From Candidatus Omnitrophota bacterium (GTDB taxonomy: Bacteria > Omnitrophota > Omnitrophia > Omnitrophales > Danuiimicrobiaceae), in assembly GCA_023247075.1 (NCBI GenBank), contig JAHFHD010000004.1, positions 1-39,822 on the forward strand: 39,822 nucleotides of DNA. The letters run 5' to 3'. The position numbers and the translations under genes are program-made. Positions 3,494 to 39,822 of the stretch are shown here, in pieces. Position 1 is the first letter of the stretch. Every line of letters begins with the position of its first letter. Under the pieces are notes generated by a model. The model saw nothing but the letters and a program-made list of their open reading frames with translations. It did not search any database and had not been told where the DNA came from.

Positions 3494-4438
3494 GTGACAA
3501 ACGAAATTCCTTTTAAAAAAATTTGGTGGGAAGACCCGCTGTTTAAAAGCAGCACTGCTTTTCTGGCCTGGTTTGTCTTTGGGCTCAGCGTCCTGCTTGT
3601 CTTCATCCTTGGCAAATTTTCTCTGCCCTCCATCGCACAATTTGGATTGCATTTTTTTTCATCAACCGAATGGAATCCGGTCACCGAAAACTTTGGCGCG
3701 CTCCCTTTTATTTATGGAACCATTGTTTCATCGCTGATTGCAATTTTAATCGCAGTTCCGCTTTCGCTTGGAGTCGCTCTTTACCTTTCAGAGCTTGGCC
3801 CCATGTGGATTCGAAATCCACTTAACTTTTTAATCGAGCTTCTTGCCGCAATTCCCAGCGTGATTTATGGATTGTGGGGGATTTTTGTTCTGGTTCCATT
3901 TGTCCGCAAATATGTAGAACCATTTTTGTCAGCCTGTTTTGGGTTCCATCCGCTTTTTCAAGGGCCGATGTATGGAATAGGCATGCTTTCTGCGGGAATC
4001 ATCTTAAGCATTATGATTATTCCAACCATTTCGTCCATTTCGCGGGAAGTTTTTTCCCTTGTGCCGGCAAGCTTAAAGGAAGGCGCTTTTGCAATCGGAG
4101 CAACTCGATGGGAAATGATTCGCCTTGTGATGCTTCCTTATGGACGCTCAGGAGTATTGGGCGCTGTTATTTTGGGACTTGGCCGCGCGCTCGGAGAAAC
4201 CATGGCAGTCACCATGGTCATTGGAAACCGGCCTGACATTGCCATTTCTCTTTTTGCTCCGGCGCACACTATGTCTTCAGTGATTGCAAATGAATTTAGT
4301 GAAGCAACCACCTCTCTTTACGCCGCGTCTTTGATGGAAATTGGGCTTGCACTTCTTGTCTTAACACTGGCTTTAAATATTCTTGCCAGAATGTTGGTGT
4401 GGTCATTTTATGGGAAAGCAAAAGGTACCCGCGCATGA
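3494..4438 (+). CDS. pstC: Phosphate ABC transporter permease PstC
   Basis: Six-TM permease with LKEGAFAIGATRWEMIRLVMLPYGRSGVLGAVILGLGRALGETMAV; GTG start at 3494; follows pstS. Confidence 0.93.
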   Translation: MTNEIPFKKIWWEDPLFKSSTAFLAWFVFGLSVLLVFILGKFSLPSIAQFGLHFFSSTEWNPVTENFGALPFIYGTIVSSLIAILIAVPLSLGVALYLSELGPMWIRNPLNFLIELLAAIPSVIYGLWGIFVLVPFVRKYVEPFLSACFGFHPLFQGPMYGIGMLSAGIILSIMIIPTISSISREVFSLVPASLKEGAFAIGATRWEMIRLVMLPYGRSGVLGAVILGLGRALGETMAVTMVIGNRPDIAISLFAPAHTMSSVIANEFSEATTSLYAASLMEIGLALLVLTLALNILARMLVWSFYGKAKGTRA

Positions 4439-30993: not shown

Positions 30994-33900
30994 ATGCAAG
31001 GACGTTTTTTAAAGTCTGTTTCACTCATCACCGCTGCTGTATTTTCCATCACCCAATTTTCATTTCCTGAACGTTTAAACGCTTCGGTCATTCCTTCTCC
31101 CGCATTTAATTTTGAACAGGCATCTTCGCGAGTTAGCGCTGCCGCACCTTTTCGACTCTCCATTCCCAAAGAACTTGCTGCAATTAACAACATTCATTCT
31201 GGAGTTGGGCCAAAGTTAATTCATATTCAAACTTCACACATGAGTTTTGAGGCCCAGAAAAAAATCAAAAGCATTTTGAAACACCTTGAGAAAGAAGAGG
31301 GAATCAAAACACTTTTTTTAGAAGGCACTGCTTTTAAGCTAGACCCATCACTCCTTCGCTTTTTCCCAACCCGCCCGGATTTAAACGAAAAAGCGCTTGA
31401 GCAACTCTCCCAAAAATCCTTAGTTGATGGAGCAGAACTTTTTCTTGCTGATTCTCAAAACGCAAGTGCGTACGGCATTGAAGACGCAGAAGTTTACAAA
31501 AAAGGCACCGAAATTTTTCGCGACGTTTTGCGCGCGCGCCGCGGGTCAGAGCAATTCCTTAAAGATTTTGACCAGCAAATTTCCCGCATTGCAAGCACCC
31601 GGCTAAATCCAAAGCTAAGGGATTTTTTAAAAGAGTGCAGCCGCTACACGAGCGGCACAAATAGCCCGAGCAGCCAGATTTCATTTTTAAAACAGCGCGC
31701 ACTAGAAACGCTTGAGCTTGAGTTTACCAATCCGGTGAATCAAGTTGATTGGCCCATGCTCGTGCGGCTTACAAAATTAGAAAAATGGGAAAAGGAAATT
31801 AATCAAGCCGCACTCAAAAAAGAAAAAGATTTGTTTCTTGCGGTAGTCTCAAAAAAACTTACCCCATCTCTTGCGGCTTTAATTGAAGAATTGCTTTCCT
31901 CGCCGCTTGTGTCTTCAACCAGGTCAAGCGACGGCTTCGACCTAATTTTTGAAGAGATGGCGGACAAGCTGCCTCGAGATTTTAATTACGCAGCTTACCC
32001 AAATCTAAATCGTGCCATTGGTTTTCGCCTGTTAAATAGCGAAATCGACCCCTCTTTGCTCATGAAGGAAGTCGAACAGCTGAGTCAAAAAATCGCAGAG
32101 TCACTGGCGCAAAGCCAAACCGAGAAAAAAATCCTCGACGTGCTTAACAAACATCGTTTGCTTCGAAAACTATTTGCACTTGAGCTCGGCCCAGATGATT
32201 ACGAAGAAATTCAACAGCTGTCATTGCGAGAAGCCCCGAATGGGGCGACGAAGCAATCTCAGTTCTGGATTGCTTCGTCAACACTTGGAACGCTTCCTCG
32301 CAATGACGAAACGTCAAAGCGCTTACGGGCATATTTTCAACCATCTCAGCTAATTCAAGAATTGCTCGCACTTTGCGTGTCCGAACATGTAAGCGTTGCT
32401 GCATTTGACAGTCATCTAGGAGAAATCGACCAGTTGTTTCGCCGAGCACTTGATTTTTACGCGGTGGTCAAAGAGCGTGACCAGTGCATGATTCGAAATG
32501 TGGAACGCCGATTTAAAGAAACGGGTGTGGATAAAGCAGTGGTAATTACCGGCGGTTTTCACTCACGACCGTTTCAGGAATATTTTTCAAAACACGGTTA
32601 TCGCTACGCGCTTCTTTCGCCTAATTTTACTTCTGGTTCAAAAGAAGATTCTGAAGAGGGCAAAGCGGGTTACATCCGATTCATTCTTGAAACTGACCCG
32701 CGGAAGCTCGAAACTCAAACCCACGCAGCCACTCCAATTGCGCAGGACGAAGTTAATTTCGCGCCGCTTGGTTATGATTTCAAAATTACCGCAACACTTG
32801 TCCGGGATGAGTTGAGAGCCACCTTCGGGACAACGCCTTCATCAGCCTTTAACCCAAAGGTTGCTGCCCATTGGGGGATTCAACTTCCCGCTTCCGTTAT
32901 TGATAAAGGAATTGCTCCTCGCCAGGAAGTGCGCTCCTCAGCGCATAGCTCAAAAGCGCCGGAGCCCGCTCGTCAACACCGCCAAGGGATACGCGGTTTT
33001 TACAATGAAGAAATTAGCTTTGTGGAACTTATGTTGATTACCGCTTTATTGTCCTTTCTGTCTTTAGGTTTTTTCCCATTTTTTGTTGCGCACGGCATTC
33101 AACAAAAGAATAGATTTTTAGTTATCGTAGCTGGTATCCCAAGCGCTTTAGCAGCAGTTGGATTTTTGGGAGCGCTTGCCTATTTTCTCAACTGGAGTAT
33201 CCAACGACGCTTGAAAAAGAGCAACACCACAATTGCCGGCGAAGTTCCTAGAAAAGAACTTCGCGCGAGCAAAAACCCACTGTCTTTAGGAAAGTATTTA
33301 GCAGGAACGGCGTTTAGATTAGCAGCTTCCTTCGCGCTTGCGGGAACGCTTTTTGTAACATCCGTTTTTGCTCAATCAGATTCTCAAGGACAAACCGGCC
33401 GCCCAACAACTAATTCAACTGCGCTGGTTCGACAAAGAAAATCGGACGGCGGATCGACGATTGAAATTTTTAGCCCAGACGGAGCAAAAATAAAGCTCAC
33501 AAAACTTGTTGCTCAGTCCATGAAAACGCCAGGCGGCGATTGGTCGCTAATTTATTCCGAGCCCGGCAGCCGTTTTCTTAGCGGCCGCGCTCAAGCGCGT
33601 GATTTAGAGACAAAGGAGTCGGGATGGGTTACAAGGTTTCAAGCGGAGCTGCCCGAGTTTGATTTGATATTTACCTTTACGAGTCAAAAGCCCGACCAAT
33701 TTGAAGTTACAGTTACTGGCATGAACGGCAGCCAAATTAACCCCCGTCCTGAACTGCGGAGTAAATTATCCTCATCACGCCCCAAAATCCATCCCAAACA
33801 ACCTCCTTGGAGGTTTGTTAGGAGGCTTAAGGAGATCGCCGCCAGTAAAACTGTCTCCACGAAAGGCAGCGTTCCTCCTGCACGGGTTTTTACGGGGCGA

Positions 33901-36900
33901 AGAAATTTATCGAAAACGAAGCAAGCGCCTCAACCGGCGGTTTTCCACCCGAGAAAAAAATGGGCATCTACCGTATCAGCCAAAAGACAGTTGGACAGAA
34001 ACAGAGAAAGAGAAGGGCCTGCAAAAACATATCAACAAAAGGGCCTGGGCGCGAAGGGTGGAAGCACAGGGAACGGTCACACACGACAACTCAGCGGACG
34101 CATGGGGCGGCTAAGGGCTTTTGTGGTTCAGTTTGGTTTTGGATTTCTTATGTGGTCGGCTGATTTGGTTGCTCAGGACGCACCTCAACAAGGCCAGAAC
34201 TTTTTGCGTTCGTCTGGAGAGGTTATCAATCCAAACGCAGCTACCTACGCGCACGCTGAACTGCGAAGCAGCGAAAGGCTGGTTCAATTAATTGATTCCC
34301 GAAGCGCATGGGAAGACGTTGACAGTTTTGTAAAACAATTTGAGCGTCAAGCTAAAAAGCGCATTGCGGCAAATTTAATGAGCACAAGCGGTCCATTACT
34401 TAACGAGTTTTTTGAGGGACTTGATTTTACCCATGACTGGATTCATTTCTCTAGTTCTCACAAAAATCGGCTAATCATTTTGAAATTTGGAAAAGTGGGA
34501 ACAACTAAAACAGGAGCGAGCGTTTACACAATAGAACTGGATTTCAAAAATCAAAAATCGTACGTTGCGAAAAACTCGCTGGATAATCTTTTATTTAAGC
34601 CGCTTCCCATCGAACTCAATCAATTACGCGCAATCGAATTTGATTTTAAGCGCGGCATAATCCATTTCAAATTCACTTCACCGCCCAATCTTGAATCTTT
34701 AAAAAGCGCACTCGGGCCAGATTTATTTGAGCGAGTCAAGTTTGAGATGTTTGAAGAAGTGACACACGGCAAAGTTTCTGTGCCGCAGGATTTTCAAACG
34801 TACGCTTCGCTTTTGCAAAATGAACGTCGCCACAGCGCGCGCGACTTTGCAGACTATGTGAATGCCATGTTAATTAAGTATCCAGACGGCAGAACCACTG
34901 GCGCCGACCAAAAGTTTGATGATGAAGTGACGGCTCTTCATCCAGAAATCGCAACACTTTGGTTTATGGTTTCAATCGCTAGCAAGGTGGTTGAAAATCC
35001 AGCCGCTCCACCGAACAGTTATTTTGGAAGCTTTGAGCAAGCTTATTTGCGGCGTTTCGACAAATACAAAATGTTTGAAGCAACAAGAAAACAAATACAC
35101 ACAATCCAAGTTTCCCGAAAAAGTAGAGAATTCCCCAAACTTGTTTTTCCTACTCTAAATATCTCGCTCCCATTGACTCAAACGGACACACTTCAATTTG
35201 AATTGGAAGCTGGCAATCGTCAAGAGCTTCGGAGCAATTTATTTCAATTCAGCAGAAGGGGAATTATCTTTGCATCTTTAATGGGTTTTATTGCTGTAAG
35301 CGAGCTTCTTACACCTGCAGTCGCTAGCGATGAAAGTTTGCCAGTTACTGATGAGCAAACAGTGAGCACTCAAAGCGAAAGCCCCGCTCCTTTAACAGAC
35401 CTGTATCCGTTGGTTCAAGCGCCATCTGATTTGGCACAGGCCATCCCGTATCTTGAAAAGAAACTGACTGAGTTTGAAATCGAAGGGGGCGGCGGTCTGC
35501 TCCGCTCCTATTATGTTGATGATCGAGACAAACAGTTTCTCGAATTTAAAAATATCACCTGCATTTATGATCAAGCTATTGCGATCGTCGCGATGACCGC
35601 TTTAGGCCGGCAGGAAACAGCAGAGCGTTGGATGCGGGCATTAATTCGATCTGCACATCCTGACGGGCAATTTCCATTTTTTGTTCGCTACGACAAGAAT
35701 GAGTCAGATCCCTACTACAGGACAGGCTCCCAAATGTGGGCAGCATATGCGATGGGATTTTTCTTACAAAAATTTCCAGAAAGTTCGCTAACTCCTCACA
35801 TTAAAGCGGCACTCAAAAAGCACTTGGATGCCATGATTAAAAACTATTGGCTTGAAGGAAGTGAACAAGGCACTCAGGAAGATACTTTCACCGGAGGCAA
35901 AGGCCAGTACCCAAATTACCCAAAAACGGAAGGTTTCGATCCAAAACCTAAGCAGTGGAGCAGCACGAAGCAGAATATCGATGCTTATTTTACTTTGGAG
36001 CTAGCCGGCAGGGTTTTGGGCGACTCAAAATATACCGCCATCGCTCAGCGCGTCAAAAAGGCTCTCCTCAATCGACTCTGGAACAATGAAAGCAATGAAG
36101 CGTATCAAGGGGTTACGGGCCCTGCCGGTCAAGATAAAAATCACGCTCTGGATGTCGGTTCCTGGTACAGCATCTTTGCTTCTTTGGTTGGTGAACACGA
36201 TCGCGCGAAGCTGGCTTTAAAAAGCACGGATCAGTATCTGGTTGTTGAAGAAGGCGTCCGTGGATACACACCTTATCTAAAGGAAAGAGGATATCCTGAA
36301 GCGGCGGGCGGAATTTGGGGCGAGGGAACAGCAGGCGTCCTCCTCGCAAAAAGATTGGCGCCGCGACCTGCAGAGACAGAAGTTGTAGATGATGTTGAGA
36401 ATTTATTAAAGCTGATGACAGACCATGGCCTTTTGGATCACACCCAAAATGTCGAGATTGATGATTTAAAACGTTTGCCTTCTGCGGTCTCGACAGCCTG
36501 GACTTTAATCGCTCTCCATCCGAATGGGTTTTGGAACACGGATGTGCCTCCGCTAGGTGCAAAACCCGTGGAAGCACCTGCCAGAGAAATTCGTAAGGAA
36601 CTTCGAAGCAATCCATTTCAATTCAGCAGAAGGGGAATTGTCTTTGCATCTTTAATGGGTTTTATTGCTGTAAGCGAGCTTCTTACACCTGCAGTCGCTA
36701 GCGATGAAAATTTACCAGCCGCTGATGAGCAAACAGTGAGCGCTCAAAGCGAAAGCCCCGCTCCTTTATTTGACATACCGTTGGCTGGATTTGATTCTCA
36801 AATAGGCAGGGTTGTTAATAAAAAGCTTACAGTGACGAAGGGTAGCGACGGCAAAATAACGGCTAGGATTGTTGAAGACTTTGAATTGTCAGAAACTCCA

Positions 36901-39822
36901 AAACGTGAAGCGGCCCCCGCCATATCTACTTCTCCCCAAAAAATTGTTTTGACCGGACAAACTCAGGATGAAAAAAAAGTGTCTTTCATTGGCTCGAAAG
37001 GCGAGAAAAATAACTACGCTGGAATTGTCATTTTTGAAACACAGGTTACTTCCGAGTTTTTTGACGCCCCCCTGCTTCTTAAAGAGATGTACACAGTATC
37101 AAGCGACCAGGCTTCTGAAAAGAATAGTGAATGGTATGACAATAATAAAGTCTTGGTTCAAAAAATTAATTCAGACGGTTCCATCGAACTCTTCAGTCCC
37201 AAGAAAAGTTTGACGGTGCATATTTCAAAAGAAGATGCCAACGGCCGCCAAAGTTTAACCATCCACACCCCTTCTGCTCAAGGTAATGTTGAGGGAAAAG
37301 CATGGACTGAAAAATCCTCAGGACTTGTGGAAGGTGTTAATGGAAATAGCTTCAATAACCCCGGGTGGAGCCTCTTCGTTAAAAGGCTCGAAGATGGGTC
37401 GCTCAAGGTTTTTCTTACGAACCTGTATCCATTGGTTCAAGCGCCATCTGATTTGGCGCAGGCCATCTCGGATCTTGAAGCGAAACTGATTGATTTTGAA
37501 ATCGAAGGAGGAGGCGGCCTCCTTCGTTCTTATTACGTCAATGACCGAGACGAGCAATATTTGTGGGTTAAAGACATCACCTACATTTATGATCAAGCGG
37601 CTGCAATAGTTGCGATGACTGCTTTAGGCCGGCAAGAAATAGCAGAACGTTGGATGCAGGCGCTGATTCGGTCTGCACATCCTGACGGGCAATTTCCATT
37701 TTTTGTTCGCTACGACAGGGTTAAGTCAGATCCTTACTACAGGACAGGCTCCCAAATGTGGGCAGCATATGCGATGGGATTTTTCTTACAAAAATTTCCA
37801 GAAAGTTCGCTAACTCCTCACATTAAAGCGGCACTCAAAAAGAACTTGGATGTCATGATTGAAAAGTATTGGCTTGAGGGAAGTGAACAAGGCACTCAGG
37901 AAGATACTTTCATGGGAGGCAAAGGCGTTTATCCAAATTACCCAAAAACGAAAGGCTTCAATCCAAACATTAAAAAAGAGTGGAGCAGCACAGAGCATAA
38001 TATCGATGCTTATTTTGCTTTGGAGCTAGCCGGCAGGGTTTTGGGTGATTCAAGATACGCTGCCATCGCTCAGCGCGTCAAAAAGTCTCTCCTCAATCGA
38101 CTTTGGAATAATGAAAGCAATGAAGCGTATCAAGGAACTAGCCATGAAGGTCCAGATAAAGATCATGCTCTGGACGTCGCTTCTTGGTACAGCCTTTTTG
38201 CTTCTTCGGTCGGGGAACACGACCGCGCGAAGCTGGCTTTAAAAAGTGCGGATCAATATCTGGTTGTTGAAGAAGGCATCCGTGGATACCCACCCTATCT
38301 AAGGGAAAAAGGATATTCTAAAGCGACGGGCGGAGTTTGGGGCGAGGGAACAGCAGGCGTCCTCCTCGCAAAAAGATTGGCGCTGCGACCTGCAGAGACA
38401 GAAGTTGTAGATGATGTTGAGAATTTATTAAAGCTGATGACAAACCATGGCCTTTTGTATCACACCCAAAACGCGGCTTATGATTCAAAACATTTGCCTT
38501 CTGTGGTCTCGACAGCCTGGACCTTAATCGCTATCCATCCGAATGGGTTTTGGAATACGGATGTGCCCATGTTAGGCGCAAAACCCGCGGAAGCACCTGC
38601 CAGAGAAATTCGTAAGGAACTTCGGAACAATCCGTTTAAATCCAGCAGAAAAAGAATTGTTTCCGCATCTTTAGCAGGTCTTATTGCTGTGGGCGAGTTT
38701 TTTACACCCGCACCCGTTTCACAAGCCTCTAGCGATGGAAGTTTACCAGCTACTGATGAGCAAACAGTGAGCGCTCAAAACAAAAGTCCCGCTCCTTTAT
38801 TTGAAATGCCGTTCGGCGCTGAGCTTGACTCTCAAACAGGCAAAGTTATTAATGGAAAGCTTATGGTGACGAAAAATGGCGGCGGCAAAATAACGGCTAG
38901 GATTTTTGGCGGCCCCGTTTCCGAGACACTCATTAAAGAATTTGAATTGTCAGGAATTCCAGAACGCGAAGACACTCCCACTACTCCTAACTCCCCAAGA
39001 AAGATTGTTTTGACCGGACAAACTCTGGATGGAAAGAAAGTGTCTTTCATTGGCTTGAAAGGCAAGAAAAATAGCTACGCCGGCGTTTTCATCGTTGAAA
39101 CCGAAGTCACTTCCGAGTTTTTTGACGCCCCCGTACGTCTTAAAAAGATGTACACAGTATCAGGGGGCAAGGTTTCTGAAAAGGGCAGTGAATGGTATGA
39201 CAAAAATAAAACCTTAATTCAAAAGACTAATCCAGACGGTTCCATTGAATTATTCGATTCCAAGAAAAGTTTGACGGTGCATATTTCAAAAGAAGATGCC
39301 AACGGCCGCCGGAGTGTAACCACCCTCTTTTCAGGTGAAATCCCTTCTGCTCAAGGCTATGTTGAGGGAAAAGCATGGACTGAAGAATCCTCAGGGCTTG
39401 TGGAAGGTGTTAGTGGAAATAGCTTCAACAACCCTGGGTGGCGCCTCGTCGTTAAAAGACTCGAAAATGGGTTGCTGTTTGTGTTACGGAAGTATGTGAA
39501 TACTGACGAAAGCGGCGCTCCAGACCCCCGCTCGTTGTTACCGCCTCTTCCGGCGCAAGATAAGCAAACACCTAATACTGACGAACGGCGTGAGTTGCGC
39601 AGCAGTTCCAAAATAAATTTTTCAAACGCAATACCGGACAGCCATCAGGCCGCAGAATTCCAAACCGTTTCTTTGGGGGGCAAAAATTTAATTATTGGTC
39701 CCAACGGAGCTATGACAAAAATAAAATTAGGAGAATCTTTTGACGATGCCATTGCACGTTACCTTGAAGAAAGACAGCCCGAAAGCGATTCCCTTTCCGC
39801 GCAATATGCCCGCACCGGCGGC
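30994..39822 (+). CDS. Giant modular secreted protein with repeated ELR motifs and internal signal-peptide-like segments (3' end beyond window)
   Basis: Every codon from ATG 30994 to 39822 was read in the line-start frame: no stop codon, at least 2943 codons. N-terminal signal peptide MQGRFLKSVSLITAAVFSITQFSFPERLNA; ChaN/TraB-like KLIHIQTSHMSFEAQKKIKSILKHLEKEEGIKTLFLEG...VVITGGFHSRPFQEYFSKHGYRYALLSPNF; TM pair; duplicated six-hairpin-glycosidase-like modules. Absent from the ORF track. Confidence 0.9.
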   Translation, partial: MQGRFLKSVSLITAAVFSITQFSFPERLNASVIPSPAFNFEQASSRVSAAAPFRLSIPKELAAINNIHSGVGPKLIHIQTSHMSFEAQKKIKSILKHLEKEEGIKTLFLEGTAFKLDPSLLRFFPTRPDLNEKALEQLSQKSLVDGAELFLADSQNASAYGIEDAEVYKKGTEIFRDVLRARRGSEQFLKDFDQQISRIASTRLNPKLRDFLKECSRYTSGTNSPSSQISFLKQRALETLELEFTNPVNQVDWPMLVRLTKLEKWEKEINQAALKKEKDLFLAVVSKKLTPSLAALIEELLSSPLVSSTRSSDGFDLIFEEMADKLPRDFNYAAYPNLNRAIGFRLLNSEIDPSLLMKEVEQLSQKIAESLAQSQTEKKILDVLNKHRLLRKLFALELGPDDYEEIQQLSLREAPNGATKQSQFWIASSTLGTLPRNDETSKRLRAYFQPSQLIQELLALCVSEHVSVAAFDSHLGEIDQLFRRALDFYAVVKERDQCMIRNVERRFKETGVDKAVVITGGFHSRPFQEYFSKHGYRYALLSPNFTSGSKEDSEEGKAGYIRFILETDPRKLETQTHAATPIAQDEVNFAPLGYDFKITATLVRDELRATFGTTPSSAFNPKVAAHWGIQLPASVIDKGIAPRQEVRSSAHSSKAPEPARQHRQGIRGFYNEEISFVELMLITALLSFLSLGFFPFFVAHGIQQKNRFLVIVAGIPSALAAVGFLGALAYFLNWSIQRRLKKSNTTIAGEVPRKELRASKNPLSLGKYLAGTAFRLAASFALAGTLFVTSVFAQSDSQGQTGRPTTNSTALVRQRKSDGGSTIEIFSPDGAKIKLTKLVAQSMKTPGGDWSLIYSEPGSRFLSGRAQARDLETKESGWVTRFQAELPEFDLIFTFTSQKPDQFEVTVTGMNGSQINPRPELRSKLSSSRPKIHPKQPPWRFVRRLKEIAASKTVSTKGSVPPARVFTGRRNLSKTKQAPQPAVFHPRKKWASTVSAKRQLDRNREREGPAKTYQQKGLGAKGGSTGNGHTRQLSGRMGRLRAFVVQFGFGFLMWSADLVAQDAPQQGQNFLRSSGEVINPNAATYAHAELRSSERLVQLIDSRSAWEDVDSFVKQFERQAKKRIAANLMSTSGPLLNEFFEGLDFTHDWIHFSSSHKNRLIILKFGKVGTTKTGASVYTIELDFKNQKSYVAKNSLDNLLFKPLPIELNQLRAIEFDFKRGIIHFKFTSPPNLESLKSALGPDLFERVKFEMFEEVTHGKVSVPQDFQTYASLLQNERRHSARDFADYVNAMLIKYPDGRTTGADQKFDDEVTALHPEIATLWFMVSIASKVVENPAAPPNSYFGSFEQAYLRRFDKYKMFEATRKQIHTIQVSRKSREFPKLVFPTLNISLPLTQTDTLQFELEAGNRQELRSNLFQFSRRGIIFASLMGFIAVSELLTPAVASDESLPVTDEQTVSTQSESPAPLTDLYPLVQAPSDLAQAIPYLEKKLTEFEIEGGGGLLRSYYVDDRDKQFLEFKNITCIYDQAIAIVAMTALGRQETAERWMRALIRSAHPDGQFPFFVRYDKNESDPYYRTGSQMWAAYAMGFFLQKFPESSLTPHIKAALKKHLDAMIKNYWLEGSEQGTQEDTFTGGKGQYPNYPKTEGFDPKPKQWSSTKQNIDAYFTLELAGRVLGDSKYTAIAQRVKKALLNRLWNNESNEAYQGVTGPAGQDKNHALDVGSWYSIFASLVGEHDRAKLALKSTDQYLVVEEGVRGYTPYLKERGYPEAAGGIWGEGTAGVLLAKRLAPRPAETEVVDDVENLLKLMTDHGLLDHTQNVEIDDLKRLPSAVSTAWTLIALHPNGFWNTDVPPLGAKPVEAPAREIRKELRSNPFQFSRRGIVFASLMGFIAVSELLTPAVASDENLPAADEQTVSAQSESPAPLFDIPLAGFDSQIGRVVNKKLTVTKGSDGKITARIVEDFELSETPKREAAPAISTSPQKIVLTGQTQDEKKVSFIGSKGEKNNYAGIVIFETQVTSEFFDAPLLLKEMYTVSSDQASEKNSEWYDNNKVLVQKINSDGSIELFSPKKSLTVHISKEDANGRQSLTIHTPSAQGNVEGKAWTEKSSGLVEGVNGNSFNNPGWSLFVKRLEDGSLKVFLTNLYPLVQAPSDLAQAISDLEAKLIDFEIEGGGGLLRSYYVNDRDEQYLWVKDITYIYDQAAAIVAMTALGRQEIAERWMQALIRSAHPDGQFPFFVRYDRVKSDPYYRTGSQMWAAYAMGFFLQKFPESSLTPHIKAALKKNLDVMIEKYWLEGSEQGTQEDTFMGGKGVYPNYPKTKGFNPNIKKEWSSTEHNIDAYFALELAGRVLGDSRYAAIAQRVKKSLLNRLWNNESNEAYQGTSHEGPDKDHALDVASWYSLFASSVGEHDRAKLALKSADQYLVVEEGIRGYPPYLREKGYSKATGGVWGEGTAGVLLAKRLALRPAETEVVDDVENLLKLMTNHGLLYHTQNAAYDSKHLPSVVSTAWTLIAIHPNGFWNTDVPMLGAKPAEAPAREIRKELRNNPFKSSRKRIVSASLAGLIAVGEFFTPAPVSQASSDGSLPATDEQTVSAQNKSPAPLFEMPFGAELDSQTGKVINGKLMVTKNGGGKITARIFGGPVSETLIKEFELSGIPEREDTPTTPNSPRKIVLTGQTLDGKKVSFIGLKGKKNSYAGVFIVETEVTSEFFDAPVRLKKMYTVSGGKVSEKGSEWYDKNKTLIQKTNPDGSIELFDSKKSLTVHISKEDANGRRSVTTLFSGEIPSAQGYVEGKAWTEESSGLVEGVSGNSFNNPGWRLVVKRLENGLLFVLRKYVNTDESGAPDPRSLLPPLPAQDKQTPNTDERRELRSSSKINFSNAIPDSHQAAEFQTVSLGGKNLIIGPNGAMTKIKLGESFDDAIARYLEERQPESDSLSAQYARTGG
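32221..32306. repeat. TCATTGCGAG...CTCGCAATGA palindromic repeat within the giant CDS
   Basis: TCATTGCGAGAAGCCCCGAATGGGGCGACGAAGCAATCTCAGTTCTGGATTGCTTCGTC...CTCGCAATGA; 10-bp terminal inverted repeats and inner GAAGCAATC/GATTGCTTC. Confidence 0.85.
35401..39470 (+). repeat. ~2.02-kb in-frame tandem duplication inside the giant CDS
   Basis: CTGTATCC(G/A)TTGGTTCAAGCGCCATCTGATTTGGC(A/G)CAGGCC at 35401 and 37423 (2022 bp apart); the ELR motif recurs at 36598 and 38617; B modules at ~36768-37420 and ~38790-39470 are also alignable. Confidence 0.93.

Follow-up and report, generated by a model that had tools for sequence, protein, structure and literature searches.

The window, the 39,822-nucleotide stretch of Omnitrophota DNA analyzed here, ends in a long open reading frame (ORF) that raises an unusual question: what is the role of a short, charged peptide that recurs along a single protein, in several places just ahead of a segment resembling a signal peptide? 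The sequence-only reading of this DNA had listed nine E-[LV]-R-[SAN] sites at or near module boundaries and had offered three explanations: a polyprotein, a repeated membrane-anchor module or a serial fusion of secreted-protein genes. The ORF is at least 8.8 kb long, its frame being cut by the end of the window, against the >20 kb used as the criterion for giant ORFs. The genes upstream, at positions 437–21753, are ordinary and include a porin, an ABC transporter, a solute-binding protein and a GH94 phosphorylase, together with a glucoamylase-type protein, an ROK kinase, ATP sulfurylase and a PALP enzyme.

A five-residue motif in giant ORFs

All nine sites were found in this one open frame at the positions given for them, each position marking the residue that precedes the E, and E[LV]R[SAN] was in clear excess, with nine occurrences compared with 0.36 when the protein was shuffled, a count of nine being reached by none of 2000 shuffles. 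The motif is real, but it had been drawn too short: an Arg (eight sites) or a His (one site) two residues before the E had been overlooked. The corrected motif, [RH]-x-E-[L/V]-R, fits 9/9 sites in the window (Table 1), and [RH]xE[LVIM]R occurs nine times in the ORF where 0.18 occurrences are expected, a count again reached by 0/2000 shuffles. Among 78 ELR occurrences in the long ORFs of the window genome, the residue two positions before the E was Arg in 46 and His in 12, a bias that is missing in the ordinary ORFs of the same genome.

Table 1. Features of the giant ORF, with positions in the window
Feature	Position	Strand	Remarks
Giant ORF	30994..39822	+	ATG start; at least 2943 aa; open at window end
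N-terminal Sec-type signal peptide MQGRFLKSVSLITAAVFSITQFSFPERLNA	30994..31083	+	by eye
Header domain ("GGFH" module)	31009..32760	+	without Pfam or NCBIfam family
Junction motif RDELR	32803..32817	+	
Junction motif RQEVR	32920..32934	+	
Two hydrophobic (TM-like) segments	33022..33190	+	
Junction motif RKELR	33250..33264	+	
Internal signal-peptide-like segment ASKNPLSLGKYLAGTAFRLAASFALAGTLFVTSVFA|QSD	33265..33372	+	by eye
Junction motif RPELR	33745..33759	+	
Signal-peptide-like segment MGRLRAFVVQFGFGFLMWSADLVA|QDA	34102..34173	+	by eye; ~116 aa past preceding motif
Junction motif HAELR	34252..34266	+	
Junction motif RQELR	35218..35232	+	
Internal signal-peptide-like segment SNLFQFSRRGIIFASLMGFIAVSELLTPAVA|SDE	35233..35325	+	
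Helical module, copy 1	35392..36558	+	
Junction motif RKELR	36592..36606	+	
Internal signal-peptide-like segment, copy 2	36607..36699	+	
Helical module, copy 2	37417..38595	+	83% identical to copy 1
Junction motif RKELR	38611..38625	+	
Internal signal-peptide-like segment, copy 3	38626..38727	+	
Junction motif RRELR	39586..39600	+	

The two copies of the helical module represent a recent tandem duplication that included the neighboring junction and signal-like segment. The structure model of this module (pLDDT 40) was too poor for use.

The enrichment extends to other proteins of the genome and to the clade, which had been set beforehand as a check on the sequence-only reading; for the corrected motif, the result was strong. 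In the window genome, of which 0.72 Mb of 2.28 Mb was covered by the count, ORFs of at least 1000 aa held 80 motifs against 5.7 expected, and ORFs shorter than 700 aa held 13 against 11.4. The giant ORFs of relatives reach 13,000–35,000 aa, and those of genome G008 (50,102 aa) contained 128 motifs where 0.77 were expected; in a second family, the counts were 16 against 1.95 and 14 against 1.1. One frame in G008 (G008:C37, L084–L089) was reported as open over 35,113 aa, but about 52 kb of this stretch consists of N, and it was left out of the analysis. Ordinary ORFs near standalone nadE genes, of which 84 were taken from across the order, held a single motif against 0.57 expected, showing no excess. 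A chance origin is rejected by the counts from the window ORF and from the G008 giants. The motif is confined to giant ORFs and is specific to the order, where the consensus reads R-[SA]-E-[LVAIM]-R, with [RH]-x-E-[LV]-R as the form of the window species.

Over 155 sites, information content was limited to R, [SA], E, [VL] and R, with a weak preference for small residues immediately after and nothing further out. The 15-mers around the sites were distinct in 148/155 cases, and both Arg positions used all six Arg codons; the motif is therefore not a DNA repeat, and it is conserved as protein, not as DNA. An in-frame mobile element was rejected along with a DNA-level repeat, the codons being free to vary. 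The fourth residue depends on lineage, being L in 17/17 sites in G029, V in 10/15 in G026, and A or V in 112/136 in G008, where T is also among the residues, as for a recognition site drifting with its reader. Spacings of less than 60 aa between neighboring motifs were counted in 58/244 cases, in giant ORFs of G000, G008, G029 and others. Such close doublets are frequent, as if a linker were being excised.

Domains and signals at the junctions

Not one of the 126 motifs in 17 annotated stretches fell inside a Pfam domain, against 14.9 expected (minimum of 5 in 2000 trials), and 17 lay at most 60 aa before the start of a domain, against 6.0 expected (maximum of 14 in 2000 trials). The flanks are linker-like, rich in S, Q, T, N and P and poor in C, Y, M, W and F. 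Examples from giant ORFs are HSEMR at 602, followed by ECH_2 at 621; RSEVR at 995, followed by ECH_1 at 1013; and RSELR at 3800, followed by cobalamin adenosyltransferase at 3814. The last motif usually lies 200–400 aa before the stop, which is one module length; in two ORFs, the stop comes only 4–5 aa after a motif.

Several complete functional units are present in one frame, and a recurrent peptide is found at the unit junctions, although some junctions defined by Pfam are without it, such as NadE/NadD in G008. One ORF combines two ECH domains with AMP-binding and cobalamin adenosyltransferase domains, and another, in G008, combines NAD synthetase, NadD-type nucleotidyltransferase, NUDIX, isochorismatase-type and nicotinate phosphoribosyltransferase (NAPRTase) domains. 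A near-complete set for NAD synthesis and salvage occupies one giant ORF at L098 (G008:C44), and a standalone nadE is found elsewhere in G008. The giant-ORF NadE of this genome starts 39 aa after RSEVR and could be aligned with the standalone copy over residues 11–562 of 563 at 40% identity; inspected by eye, it has the P-loop and the amidase E, K and C. The idea that the giant-ORF enzyme copies are decayed was rejected for NadE, which is complete and has intact-looking catalytic motifs. In each of the well-assembled genomes, a nadE that is standalone or near-normal was present as well.

Internal signal-peptide-like segments, to which the sequence-only reading had drawn attention, are present after sites 3, 6, 7 and 8, but the segment at 34102–34173 does not adjoin its motif. 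The association holds beyond the window protein. Signal and hydrophobic segments were called with home-made rules rather than SignalP. When 119,241 aa were scanned with a stricter signal-peptide test, 8/16 internal candidates were situated no more than 45 aa downstream of a motif, where 1.7 were expected (p = 1e-4); two of these eight are duplicate copies in the window ORF. The three copies of the FQFSRRG...PAVA type in the window are not independent, because they lie within the duplicated stretch. Both internal lipoboxes found sit after a motif, at 20 and 35 aa, and one of these segments begins with a twin arginine, PTRRRFFK (Tat/lipoprotein type). The N-side of post-motif hydrophobic segments is more positive than that of other internal ones (p = 0.01). 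However, a hydrophobic segment followed within 45 aa in only 16/244 motifs (6.6%, against 2.6% at random), leaving about 93% without one, and it was rejected as an obligate part of the motif. What the motif chiefly sets apart are soluble domains, in many cases enzymes of cytosolic type; it is thus a general junction peptide, and its combination with a signal peptide is the less common form.

Proposed cleavage at the motif and its alternatives

We infer that the giant ORFs encode a bacterial polyprotein system in which the motif is a cut site and the modules are freed by a protease, a reading to which we assign a probability of about one half. Each chain would consist of a secreted header domain and of modules on short S/Q/T/N/P-rich linkers bearing R-[SA]-E-[LVAIM]-R. 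An Arg-specific endoprotease would cut after the last Arg (P5–P1 = R-[SA]-E-φ-R), giving every module its own N-terminus. Signal peptides function at the N-terminus, and Tat signals are read from the cytosol; the scheme requires that cutting take place in the cytosol, ahead of export. Because the motif lies 10–40 residues upstream of several module starts, cleavage would place signal peptides that had been internal at an N-terminus. Modules bearing a signal would then be exported or lipidated, and those without, such as NAD synthetase, enoyl-CoA hydratases, transketolase and GDH, would remain as free cytosolic enzymes. A cytosolic cut after the last Arg is a single assumption, and it would account for the placement of the motif in linkers as well as for the enzymes and signals. 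Counting against cytosolic cutting, the chain would be exported if the signal peptide of the header were to act first.

A fuller version of this scheme is put forward more tentatively, as something that may or may not hold: in each cell, throughout the order, dozens of polyproteins encoded by the genome would be matured by a dedicated R-[SA]-E-φ-R protease; its cutting, in the cytosol, would free the enzyme sets of pathways and unmask internal signals of the Sec, Tat and lipoprotein types, and the products of one gene would thereby be sorted to different compartments. Of the explanations in the sequence-only reading, the polyprotein is supported in modified form, the proposed cut falling at the motif and being followed by the action of the signal peptides; the membrane-anchor module does not match the junctions between enzymes. 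The search for a co-occurring protease among C11, C14, C25, S1 and S8 peptidases gave no fitting order-wide candidate. C11 peptidases (clostripain) were absent, and C14 and C25 peptidases were absent or scattered, a gingipain-type C25 occurring in one genome only, outside the order. S8 peptidases were patchy, as were S1 peptidases, the three examples read being HtrA-like.

The main rival leaves the chains uncut. The motif would be a short binding peptide whose charged, extended R-x-E-x-R face docks intact giants onto a scaffold or onto each other, in a surface or periplasmic multi-enzyme complex. The conservation of five residues, the linker position and the lineage-specific residue would fit docking as well, and coat or adhesion roles have been proposed for giant Omnitrophota proteins (PMC10066038). 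However, docking leaves the signal peptides and lipoboxes just after the motif unexplained and gives no reason for complete, ATP-dependent enzymes of cytosolic type in an exported chain, and we consider it unlikely.

Alternatively, the whole chain might be exported by Sec via the header signal and be cut at the motif by a secreted Arg-specific protease outside the cytoplasm. Most headers with a recovered N-terminus do carry a clear Sec signal peptide, and Arg-specific extracellular proteases are a common theme among bacteria. Internal signals that recur with their positive side toward the N-terminus, one of them Tat-type, would nevertheless be senseless if that side were already outside, and the NAD synthetase and acyl-CoA synthetase-type modules depend on cytosolic substrates. 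In view also of the missing clostripain and the single gingipain-type C25, extracytoplasmic cutting seems improbable.

The third explanation of the sequence-only reading, serial fusion of once separate genes, is probably how the chains arose, the modules being complete enzymes related to separate genes and a tandem junction duplication being present in the window. That the motif is merely a linker copied around in this process, functionless in itself, is very improbable: a copied linker should be similar in DNA, yet there is free variation in the five codons, with the residues fixed and the flanks unconserved, and within some genomes the fourth residue is homogeneous. The conservation of the peptide is left unexplained by fusion.

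Giant Omnitrophota ORFs have already been described, for example that of a 39,678-aa protein in Velamenicoccus archaeovorus, and adhesion, coat or polysaccharide-degrading roles were proposed for the intact giants (Seymour et al. 2023, PMC10066038). The ORFs described there resemble ours in phylum, great length, hydrophobic segments and scarcity of annotated domains, whereas the accessible part of that paper mentions neither a junction peptide nor a header family nor a polyprotein interpretation, and its main text lacks "signal peptide" and has "motif" once, for RNA. Likewise, no mention of the motif was found in the accessible parts of the literature on giant Omnitrophota ORFs. A search outside subscription journals and preprints found no publication combining Omnitrophota with polyproteins, and when texts were searched for the motif as a peptide string, the matches listed were for the most part names of software and fragments of sequences.

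Viral polyproteins of the picornavirus and flavivirus type also hold complete functional units in one chain, with short recognition peptides at the junctions and internal signal peptides beside cleavage sites. In contrast, the Omnitrophota system is cellular, comprises dozens of chains per genome and contains metabolic enzymes, and no protease was found in either chain or genome. Bradyrhizobium fbcH likewise encodes a bacterial precursor with an internal signal peptide, at which signal peptidase cuts it into two proteins, cytochromes b and c1; it is, however, one gene, without a recurrent upstream motif, and a signal peptide at each junction was not found here, given the 6.6% of motifs with a hydrophobic segment at most 45 aa downstream. 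The sites of the furin/kexin-type proprotein proteases of the eukaryotic secretory pathway, R-x-[KR]-R, are short, Arg-ended linker motifs as well, but the Omnitrophota motif has E at P3, an aliphatic residue at P2 and R at P5.

We know of no cellular genome with dozens of multi-enzyme chains sharing one junction peptide, and the claim of newness rests on this whole system as read. If the motif is an uncut linker, the system falls back to a variation on known giant ORFs. As a cleavage site, the motif would account for the complete cytosolic enzymes inside giant Omnitrophota ORFs, offer an alternative to operons in matching enzyme amounts and predict a novel sequence-specific protease. Even if the chains are uncut, "giant proteins of unknown function" can be divided by a simple sequence rule, which allows each module to be annotated and folded separately.

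The header domain

Motif-bearing giants with a recovered start begin with a Sec-type signal peptide (at most of the N-termini read) and a header of about 550 aa, followed by the modules; in most of them, the first motif lies 70–370 aa downstream of the header. The header has an invariant GGFH, together with an invariant H, E and R, and no model in Pfam or NCBIfam names it; it is an undescribed family. It was found in 47/47 genomes of the order, a single genome giving as many as 48 hits, and in 141/285 sampled Omnitrophota genomes, about half. In other classes of the phylum, it likewise heads long ORFs, but R-x-E-x-R downstream of the header occurred 5 times against 4.0 expected there, and 51 times against 5.5 inside the order. 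Since the header is present without the motif in other classes, the one can occur apart from the other, and the motif is an innovation at the level of the order. For the same reason, the header is disfavored as the reader of the motif.

The structure model of the header was fair (pLDDT 80). The best-placed neighbors in a Foldseek search include ChaN and erythromycin esterase (EreC/EreA-like), none of them significant (best E 0.26), and the best match to PF04187 (ChaN/Tiki) had an E of 0.012, in one of 16 members; no significant profile or fold match places the header in the ChaN/EreA/Tiki superfamily. That the header is a Tiki/ChaN-like metalloprotease cutting the motif in cis, as its place at the head of motif-bearing giants, its invariant residues and these weak hits might suggest, is the least credible alternative, given that the same header heads motif-free giants in other classes, that the fold hits are not significant and that its own signal peptide would remove it from the cytosol. 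The header signal peptides often share F-x-x-T-Q-x where the hydrophobic core ends, for example AVFSITQ, IAFLLTQ and FFVTTQ, the examples being those of L104, L115, L117, L119 and window positions 30994–31083.
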